Shown here in pieces: positions 55,801 to 57,347 of a DNA stretch of 64,000 nucleotides. The stretch comes from Trichopria drosophilae. Taxonomy: Eukaryota > Arthropoda > Insecta > Hymenoptera > Diapriidae. The stretch spans positions 42,568,501 through 42,632,500 of the forward strand of contig CM059587.1 in NCBI GenBank assembly GCA_030407085.1, given 5' to 3'. The position numbers and the translations under genes were made by a program. Positions within the stretch are counted from its first letter, which is position 1; each line of letters opens with the position of its first letter. The notes beneath the pieces were generated by a model. It searched no databases, was not told the origin of the DNA, and saw only the letters and a program-made list of their open reading frames with translations.

Positions 55801-56003
55801 ATGTCCATGTGTTTTTTATTTAAATAAAGAGCCTAAAATTAGGCTACCTTTTGAATGAGCATTTTAGAAGTTAGCCTCTTCAAACGTGTATTATACAGGG
55901 TCATCGAAAAGTATCGGACCCCCCTAATATCTTCAGTTAGAATGCACTTAGGAGAAAATGTCCAATAACAAAGTTGTATGGTTTCAAGCGGGGAGTAAGA
56001 TGA

Positions 56004-56053
56004 TGACCTTGACTTTGACCTTGACCATGTCCTTCAAGGTCATTTCAAGGTCA
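56004..56053. promoter_or_regulatory. Cluster of TCAAGGTCA nuclear-receptor-type half-sites
   Basis: Four exact TCAAGGTCA/TGACCTTGA nonamers lie at 56004-56012, 56016-56024, 56034-56042 and 56045-56053. The mirror arm holds four more (56498-56506, 57149-57157, 57167-57175, 57179-57187). TCAAGGTCA is the known monomer site of FTZ-F1/SF-1 and ERR-type nuclear receptors. Whether anything binds here is unknown. Confidence 0.4.
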
Positions 56054-56911
56054 ATCTTATTTTTTTAAATAGAACTCCCTACATTTTATTGCATATTCTT
56101 ATAGCTTATCTCGAGAGCTTTCCAAAACACTATAATAAAATATTTTTTTATTAAGTACTTTTTGAGTTATAAAGGTTTGAAGTTAACAATTTGTTAAGTG
56201 GTGTGCGAGTCTTACTAAAAAAATAAGGGGGGGATCCGATTAATGTATTTTCTTTAAACCAATTAATTGGTCTCATTATTCCACGCACAAAAGTATTAAG
56301 GTTATGATTACTGAAAACTAAATAATATTTTACAAGATATTCTACATTTTGTGTCAAAAAATTGTTAACTTCAAACCTTTATAACTCAAAAAGTACTTAA
56401 TAAAAAAATATTTTATTATAGTGTTTTGGAAAGCTCTCGAGATAAACTATAAGAATAAGCAATAAAATGTAGGGGGTTCTATTTAAAAAAATAAGATTGA
56501 CCTTGAAATGTGTTCCGGATCGCCACGCGACGAAGCTCCTAATAACCGTTTAGGTCGAGTGGGATAATATTACAATAAAATTCCTGTAGAATTAGGAGGA
56601 AAATATGAATTAACTTCTTTGCAATTAGTTTGTTTTGGGGCGTGGTTGTTGTTTTCCGAAGTCCTGCCTCTAGTAAACAAATTATCCGAACCCGAATAAA
56701 CGGGCCTGTGGAAGGCACCTTCAGTCAGTTGATCGTTGGGTTCCGAGACGTTCGGACCAGTTTTACCATTATAGTTCGAGTATATCAAAGAGCCAGAACC
56801 TTGAGGTGCGTTGGTGGTGACTTCCCGGGTCGCTTCGCGGTCTCGTCGGTGGGTGAGTAATGATTCAATATATCTGTTATATTGTATATCATATTATTTA
56901 TTTATATATTG

Positions 56912-56918
56912 TATAAAA
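56912..56918 (+). promoter_or_regulatory. LTR TATA box
   Basis: TATAAAA lies about 33 bp before the predicted hammerhead cleavage position, at the usual distance to a transcription start. If used, RNA would start almost at the cleavage site. Confidence 0.4.
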
Positions 56919-56930
56919 ATGACATATTTA

Positions 56931-57014
56931 TTGGCGAGATATGTCTGGGGCAGGGTCCGCTCATAAGCCCCACTGAAGAGTCCGTGAGCGGACCCGGGAC
57001 GAAACATCAGCCAA
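56931..57014 (+). ncRNA. Type III hammerhead ribozyme motif
   Basis: Core: CTGAAGA at 56973-56979 (consensus CUGANGA), GAAA at 57001-57004 and the cleavage triplet GTC at 56943-56945. Stem I: TGGGGC (56946-56951) pairs with GCCCCA (56967-56972), six perfect pairs. Stem II: GTCC (56980-56983) pairs with GGAC (56997-57000). Stem III: ATGT (56941-56944) pairs with ACAT (57004-57007), then, after a small internal loop, TTGGC (56931-56935) pairs with GCCAA (57010-57014). The loops of stems I and II contain GGGTCCGCTCA (56953-56963) and TGAGCGGACCC (56985-56995), exact complements. Cleavage is predicted after C56945. Self-cleavage activity is inferred. The competing fold is an 11-bp hairpin joining the two loops. 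Confidence 0.8.
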
Positions 57015-57347
57015 CCTATTTATTTGTGTTTGTCTAATATTTGCATGTGACTTAGCATGACGTAGCAGGAAAATACAGGATCATTTATCGAAATATATAT
57101 TCGACCCCTGTAAACGCGCGACAACCCCCTTCCCTGTAAGTAACAAAATGACCTTGAAGGACATGGTCAAGGTCAAAGTCAAGGTCATCATCTTACTCCC
57201 CGCTTGAAACCATACAACTTTGCTATTGGACATTTTCTCCTAAGTGCATTCTAACTGAAGATATTAGGGGGGTCCGATACTTTTCGATGACCCTGTATAA
57301 TACACGTTTGAAGAGGCTAACTTCTAAAATGCTCATTCAAAAGGTAG

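Follow-up and report, generated by a model that had tools for sequence, protein, structure and literature searches.

The window, which is the whole stretch of 64,000 nucleotides of Trichopria drosophilae DNA analysed here, possesses a solo LTR of 635 bp at 56511..57145 on the plus strand. The LTR begins with TGTTCCGGAT and ends with GTAAGTAACA (TG..CA), and the target site duplication AAATG is found on its left (56506..56510) and on its right (57146..57150). These ends and flanks confirmed the solo LTR with a 5-bp target duplication proposed in the initial annotation. The LTR and its relatives were named family A. It is inserted into a long inverted-repeat DNA element, of which the left part (inverted repeats I1 and I2) is situated at 55844..56510 and the right arm (I1) at 57146..57347. 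The I1 arms are 202 nt long and 100% complementary while those of I2 are 155 nt long and 97% complementary. The inverted-repeat element (55898-56510 and 57146-57300) shows TIR-like ends ACAGGGTCATCGAAAAGTATCGGACCCCCC, and the empty site is visible in its uninterrupted arm. Ten of the 14 frames of at least 110 aa in the window were scanned, and no Pfam match was found among them at E 0.01.

Within the LTR, a type III hammerhead including a distal stem III was identified at 56931..57014 (plus strand) on the basis of fold, Rfam match and conservation. It is composed of stem I of 6 bp (56946-56951/56967-56972, UGGGGC/GCCCCA), stem II of 4 bp (56980-56983/56997-57000, GUCC/GGAC) and stem III with a proximal part (56941-56944/57004-57007, AUGU/ACAU) and a distal part (56931-56935/57010-57014, UUGGC/GCCAA). 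The core is formed by CUGAAGA (56973-56979), GAAA (57001-57004) and a GUC triplet with its last nucleotide at 56945. The motif has CUGANGA, GAAA and an NUH triplet along with three stems, and its stem III is open as in type III hammerheads. When hammerhead numbering is applied, self-cleavage is predicted 3' of the C in GUC, at 56945..56946 on the plus strand. Re-reading of 56931-57014 showed that the coordinates and core words of the initial annotation were all correct, and its stems I, II and III of 6, 4 and 4+5 bp can all form.

A search of 251 nt with the Rfam model Hammerhead_3 (RF00008) gave a match at 56938-57010 with E 7.1e-6 and a score of 33.9 bits. The gathering score, 48.5, is not reached, and an Rfam scan of the whole window at the gathering threshold listed no hammerhead. 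The low score is likely due to the long loops, which are insertions to the model.

Family A elements and conservation of the hammerhead

To collect family A, 40 of 490 first-look candidates were scored and 30 loci, including that of the window, were cut out. Ranking was by similarity over the full LTR and not by the hammerhead motif, so that close copies are favoured in this set. The LTR spans positions 1-635 in 29 loci and 1-634 in one, and its ends were identical at 11 loci including the window. Most of the loci (21/30) are solo LTRs flanked on both sides by the same 5 bp. In 4/30 loci the LTR is followed by the primer binding site (PBS), which reads AAATGGTGCCGAAACCCGGGA or nearly so, and in 3/30 it is preceded by GAGAA, the end of a purine-rich tract, while the flanks do not match in 2/30.

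Two full-length elements with matching target site duplications (ATACC and GCTGT) were found. They contain a PBS-like TGGTGCCGAAACCCGGGA 3' of the 5' LTR and GGGGGAGAA 5' of the 3' LTR. Family A thus possesses the TG..CA LTR pair, short target site duplication (TSD), PBS and polypurine tract (PPT) of an LTR retroelement. The PBS-like sequence presumably matches tRNA-Phe. The two LTRs are spaced by about 5.1 and 6.0 kb, and the LTRs of each pair differ at 5 of 634 aligned positions, which indicates recent insertion and mobility of family A. The hammerhead is present in both LTRs of the two elements (L027/L038 and L036/L039), with one core change in L038.

Coding content was searched in one full-length family A element in pieces (L007, L010 and L009), in a 3.9-kb piece of a third copy (L103) and in family B pieces. 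No gag or pol of their own was found in these internal pieces. The first full-length element has no sense open frame of at least 100 aa inside; a frame of 111 aa lies upstream of the element and another, of 100 aa, runs in the antisense direction. In a Pfam scan of eight stop-to-stop frames taken from A, B and flanking DNA, no match was credible (best E 0.065). The sense stop-free lengths of the A pieces, including the 3.9-kb piece, were like those of shuffles, and a 225-aa stop-free stretch in a B piece was within its own shuffles (maximum 321). As judged from sequence, family A represents non-autonomous LTR retroelements, with no recognisable genes and no coding capacity in the internal parts examined. 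The LTR is therefore not the apparently ordinary one of the initial annotation.

The mean divergence among the 30 copies was 0.0077 in the 82-nt hammerhead and 0.0353 in the rest of the LTR, i.e. the hammerhead is 4.6-fold less diverged. As little divergence was found in 1.8% of all 82-nt windows of the LTR, and a second conserved stretch is present near LTR positions 121-160. CUGANGA, GAAA and a permitted triplet are kept in 29/30 copies, the exception being L038 with CUGAAGG; the triplet of L044 is GUU, which is still permitted. The initial annotation had named loss of the core in other LTR copies as one observation that would speak against the motif, and nearly all of these copies keep the core. 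Other departures were seen in single copies, in stem I (L042), stem II (a G-U pair, L045), stem III (L028) and the loops (L025, L034 and L047).

Hammerhead matches across the genome

The genome of 936 Mb in 509 contigs was searched with the strict pattern CTGANGAGTCC N(3-24) GGACGAAAC. It gave 730 forward and 732 reverse matches, 1,462 in all, which represent core and stem II only with all families together. The same pattern reversed gave no match on either strand (0+0). Core words alone are not significant, as they were matched in 45/100 shuffles of the window, and to this extent a chance resemblance could be considered. Against it stand the 1,462 matches with none for the reversed pattern and the covariation described below, by which chance is refuted and its probability is practically nil. 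The view of the initial annotation that chance is unlikely was borne out by the genome matches and by the low divergence among LTR copies. More than a dozen loop II sequences occur among the matches listed, all of which lie on the first part of one contig. Loci found by pattern were read from 30 of the listed matches and from 20 further regions. Viral contigs showed no match to the loop pattern of families A and B.

A genome scan with Rfam hammerhead models had also been proposed in the initial annotation. Among 68 places scored of 124,751 candidates, the model matched eight, namely six of family B, one of family A and one lone variant. None of the eight was over the cut-off (best 44.5 bits), and further scoring also gave 0/7 over the gathering cut-off. 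The lone variant, at L013:1493-1575 on the minus strand, has a shortened loop II (AAACG) and the best Rfam score, 44.5 bits. Another hammerhead variant, in L066, has loop II AAACGGGATCCTG.

The hammerhead is present in at least two other LTR families. The LTR of family A is 635 bp long, that of family B 713 bp (L018, TSD ATCAG) and that of family C 510 bp (L099). Significant homology among the three LTRs is restricted to the hammerhead surroundings, with 65 columns at 88% between A and C, 66 at 85% between B and C and 151 at 78% between A and B (E <1e-15), while the next-best matches had E >=0.04. Families A and B have internal sequence in common (470 columns at 91% and 1,450 at 94%) despite their differing LTRs. 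The occurrence of similar hammerheads in at least three LTR families and one tandem-repeat family of the same genome is a further contradiction of an ordinary LTR. The motif may also be thought of as inherited by copying from one active ancestor with no present role, and the family A copies read are mostly solo LTRs and similar to each other, which fits this. Such passive inheritance is very improbable, since the hammerhead has diverged far less than the rest of its LTR and is the main homology left between the LTR families.

The family C locus (L099:701-4107) is a tandem of three LTRs of 510 bp separated by two internal parts of 939 bp, with a unit of 1,449 bp. LTRs 1 and 2 are identical, LTR 3 differs by two gaps, and no matching 5-bp flanks were found. 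A triple-LTR tandem is expected from copying of a circle but is not unique to circles, and recombination could give the same. The internal part of L099 contains repeats of GAAATGATATATACC and a stretch at about 1628-1694 which looks tRNA-like by eye, where ARAGORN found no tRNA.

Family E (L100:700-1590, L067 and L105) has a 536-bp unit of low GC with a kissing type III hammerhead. Its units are arranged in direct tandem, about 8 at most in one array, with inverted units flanking (e.g. C1:119901595-119907746). By its arrangement, the family looks like a non-LTR retrozyme or a Penelope-like element with a type III motif. One insertion, at L100:700-1590, with a 13-nt duplication AAGTTTTCTACGT on its flanks, apparently starts where the hammerhead would be cut. 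Such element ends were considered as proof of cleavage and rejected, as no cluster of starts was seen there among the family E matches listed. Four other loci (L053, L085, L096 and L098) contain inverted pairs of hammerheads a few hundred bp apart within long palindromes, and in several of them a TGTAACGACATCCCGTTACC-like word is found upstream of the hammerhead.

Proposed pairing between loop I and loop II

The initial annotation gave the anatomy of the motif correctly and missed its most telling feature, the complementarity of loop I and loop II. Loop I (56952-56966), AGGGUCCGCUCAUAA, and loop II (56984-56996), GUGAGCGGACCCG, are complementary over 12 positions with one U-G pair. The 5' strand of the proposed kissing helix is at 56953..56964 and the 3' strand at 56984..56995, both on the plus strand. 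When both loops were shuffled 200,000 times, 12 pairs were reached by none and 11 by 5 of the shuffles. The 12-bp kiss may form only in part, because full pairing leaves almost no linker in loop II. Single kissing pairs are broken in the three family A copies with changed loops (L025, L034 and L047).

For covariation, an alignment was made from 16 of 26 distinct hits, giving 15 distinct rows; it leaves out two chance hits of L023, the lone variant L013 and seven family A rows including L038 and L045. With the kissing helix 96.2% of alignment cells were paired, compared to 28-47% in slid versions. Doubly changed kissing pairs were seen from U-A to C-G between A and B (6 rows) and from C-G to U-A in L049 (1 row). 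Of 500 shuffles, none reached the covariation score, three the cells paired and one the cells changed on both sides. The outcome of this control was mixed, as doubly changed pairs were reached by 103/500 and further pair types by 500/500. The covariation which the initial annotation had sought in the stems is slight within family A because the stems hardly vary; strong covariation was found instead in the loop-loop helix, which it had not reported. Copy-specific compensation was rejected as the main proof. The double change of L049 has one occurrence in the genome and carries little weight, and the real evidence is the pairing across loop clusters.

This evidence was drawn from 98 hammerhead hits (loci L013-L100) with 54 loop combinations, of which distinct combinations only were used because a place is repeated in some loci. 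Hits were required to have a stem I of at least 5 pairs, an NUH triplet, at least 2/4 pairs of stem III and a loop I of 9-20 nt. This filter kept 87 hits and dropped 11, and the 87 represent 45 combinations in 13 loop clusters. Loop complementarity was not used for picking. Core, stem II, stem I and triplet give no independent evidence here because the pattern fixes core and stem II, and stem I and triplet were picked as the best available. The mean contiguous run was 8.2 for cognate loops (Watson-Crick 7.4) and 4.7 for loops from different clusters (3.4), with a permutation p of 5e-5, the minimum possible with 20,000 permutations. In a fixed register, counted from nucleotide 2 of loop I and the last-but-one nucleotide of loop II, 88 cells paired compared to 68 when permuted (p 5e-5). 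At least 8 of the first 10 places are paired in 35/45 combinations, while the runs in 3/13 clusters reach no more than 4-5. As A, B and C belong to a single cluster, the test rests on other clusters too.

The same two loop strands can form a 12-bp hairpin, and a fold restricted to nested pairs favours it (MFE -34.0), giving stems I and II a probability of zero at three-digit precision. In the nested model the hammerhead has an energy of -14.1, or -19.7 with distal stem III. Nested models cannot score a kiss. By estimate, a loop duplex of about -24 kcal/mol, less a penalty of unstated size, would make the kissing hammerhead at least comparable to the hairpin. The selected structure may also be this hairpin, or an intermolecular kissing dimer acting in packaging or dimerisation, with the hammerhead core as a passenger. 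Dominance of the hairpin in nested folding and covariation of the loop-strand pairing are in line with it. A hairpin alone would not require the core and stems to be kept, yet family A copies found by LTR similarity keep the core and stems I and II almost unchanged, and the core region is common to A, B and C in spite of their different LTRs. In the 16 alignment rows stem II is invariant and stem I barely varies (L045, with its G-U pair in stem II, is outside these rows). A passenger core is accordingly considered improbable. Retention of the core by the family A copies and across families A-C argues for the hammerhead as the selected form, and the window motif is almost certainly a real and selected kissing hammerhead.

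An antisense-like stretch, a possible attenuator, is found upstream at 56823..56853 on the plus strand. It forms inverted repeat I4, is 77% complementary to 56969-56999 and complements the 3' half of the hammerhead; the MFE structure of 56800-57014 uses this pairing. The duplex z value was -7.1 for the window copy and -7.9 for a second family A copy. Elsewhere it was -0.4 to -5.2 in six B sequences, -3.1 to +1.0 in five C-like sequences, -2.2 in L065 and -0.7 to +0.5 in three others. The value of -17.3 in L072 reflects, we think, an inverted copy nearby. An attenuator as a general feature was rejected, as, of 18 sequences tested, the pairing is strong in the two family A copies, moderate in most of the B copies and weak or absent in most others. 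A catalytic antisense hammerhead at 56823-56853 was rejected as well, since the equivalent of CUGANGA is CCGACGA on the minus strand (by eye) and B differs again. Both the hairpin and the upstream pairing compete with the hammerhead, so the RNA may be bistable.

Proposed processing of element RNA and relation to known systems

A core promoter is predicted at 56695..56730 (plus strand), with AATAAA at 56695 in the TATA place and TCAGT words at 56721 and 56725 which resemble the initiator consensus. TATAAA precedes TCAGT by 30 nt in family B and by 27 nt in family C, and TATA-like words are found 26-30 nt 5' of TCAGT in all of A, B and C. The presumed start is 223 (or 219) nt from the cleavage site in A, 236 nt in B and 136 nt in C. 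A rival promoter place, TATAAA at 56912..56917 (plus strand), is 34 nt before the cleavage site; transcripts starting from it would lack part of stem III. Neither AATAAA nor ATTAAA occurs 3' of the hammerhead within the family A LTR, and presence of the hammerhead at the transcript 3' end is therefore uncertain.

The explanation preferred for the whole is a type III kissing hammerhead borne by the LTRs of non-autonomous insect LTR retroelements, which cleaves their RNA and serves a circle route, and it is considered fairly probable. The hammerhead would be carried in the R/U5 part of the LTR. Transcription probably starts at the TATA/initiator pair about 220 nt upstream of the cleavage site, which would place the 5' hammerhead in the transcript leader. 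A kissing helix of about 9-12 bp would hold stems I and II next to each other, and self-cleavage would take place 3' of GUC at 56945/56946. Most likely both LTR copies would be cleaved, releasing a unit-length RNA able to circularise; two cuts would require a poly(A) site beyond the 3' hammerhead. Closure of the unit-length RNA into a circle could be the work of a host tRNA-type ligase. An autonomous LTR element could supply the reverse transcriptase and integrase to copy the circle, with priming by tRNA at the PBS. The route through unit-length or circular RNA, taken by itself, is on balance plausible; the initial annotation had likewise suggested that the hammerhead could process element RNA or yield circles.

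Alternatively, an active hammerhead may only trim or uncap the 5' leader or destroy full-length RNA, thereby regulating expression or packaging, with no circle formed and uncleaved RNA retrotransposed. With the presumed start 136-236 nt upstream of the cut in all three LTR families, transcription of the 5' copy is probable, whereas for the 3' copy it depends on where the poly(A) site lies. Pairing with the complementary sequence upstream could also leave a part of the RNA uncut. Both points suit leader trimming. On the other hand, ordinary strand transfer depends on the R region, which cutting would remove, so that permanent cleavage would presumably be costly unless a circle is made, and the core is kept in nearly every family A copy. 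Leader trimming is thus unlikely, though it is the most probable of the alternatives.

The circle route resembles that of plant retrozymes; known systems are compared here from the available parts of the cited sources. Plant LTR retrozymes (PMC4918200) also have a type III hammerhead in the LTRs of non-coding elements with PBS and PPT, many solo LTRs and probable mobilisation in trans. They differ in host (plant versus insect), in LTR length (300-400 bp versus 510-713 bp in the three families measured here), in TSD (4 bp versus 5 bp) and in unit (0.6-1.0 kb versus a predicted 1.4 kb in C to 5.1-6.0 kb in A). Their PBS is for tRNA-Met, as against the presumed tRNA-Phe here. Their loops make short non-Watson-Crick contacts (PMC7936874), in contrast to the long Watson-Crick loop pairing of the present motif. 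By analogy, family A-type elements would work like plant LTR retrozymes, yet they depart from them in TSD and size. Linear and circular unit-length RNAs are reported for plant retrozymes (PMC4918200, PMC7761336), and in a Nicotiana benthamiana retrozyme the hammerhead cuts the LTR-driven transcript and the 5' part is lost (PMC12029980).

The metazoan non-LTR retrozymes (PMC7229834) are likewise non-coding repeats with hammerheads in animal hosts, and family E resembles them. However, they are described as type I and without LTR, PBS or PPT, whereas these three features occur in family A together with a type III motif. Type III hammerheads with a pseudoknot are also known from animals (PMC7936874), in HDV-like RNAs of toad and termite and in the genomes of termites and dipterans, and share with the present motif the Watson-Crick and wobble pairing between helix I and loop II. 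In them helix I is long and its internal loop makes a four-nucleotide GCCR/YGGC contact, while two terminal loops would pair over about 9-12 bp here. The termite genomic type III copies are described as isolated motifs in the available part of that source. The stem I/stem II pseudoknots of Perreault et al. 2011 (PMC3088659) similarly form a base-paired clamp between stems. That source links type III pseudoknots to a 2-bp difference in length between stems I and II, which fits the 6 and 4 bp here. The pseudoknots quantified there have four or more, five and six base pairs, and the available part mentions no LTR, in contrast to about 9-12 bp within an LTR here.

The initial annotation had called a type III motif unusual in animals. 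This holds for its place within LTRs; type III motifs in insects (termites and dipterans) are already reported, and were not seen inside LTRs in the available part of the source (PMC7936874). Insects with type III motifs are also mentioned, citing earlier and unpublished work, in PMC7761336. Among the titles listed in a literature search, in which subscription papers were thinly covered, none pointed to a type III hammerhead in an animal LTR. The present motif, a type III hammerhead with kissing loops in the LTRs of animal elements, is real, selected and unusual.

In the known split, type III hammerheads in LTRs belong to plants while animal retrozymes are type I and non-LTR, as given in the available parts of PMC7229834 and PMC7761336. 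This split would be bridged by an insect genome in which type III core matches number 1,462 and, in the loci read, belong to LTR and tandem-repeat elements. Such a genome also bears on the suggestion that plant LTR retrozymes may originate from organisms bearing type III motifs, e.g. bacteria or insects (PMC7761336). A tentative extension is that insects have an LTR retrozyme system of their own, with several LTR families having little in common beyond the kissing type III hammerhead and spreading by way of RNA circles of kilobase size. The 12-bp loop helix and the antisense strand would then act as a switch between a cutting and a protected fold, which would allow cutting of the nascent RNA and spare the closed circle. 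For ribozyme structure, the copies represent a useful natural covariation set for a hammerhead with long kissing loops, and they make circle-templated LTR retrotransposition testable in an animal.

Apart from the hammerheads, the odorant-receptor family 7tm_6, which is not known outside insects, gave 129 matches in this genome, many of them clustered, and 0/14 control genomes showed a match, which marks the host as an insect. Large tandem clusters of 7tm_6 exons are situated on contig C5 at about 79.1-79.4 Mb and on C6 at about 105-106.4 Mb, and some of the matches have internal stop codons.
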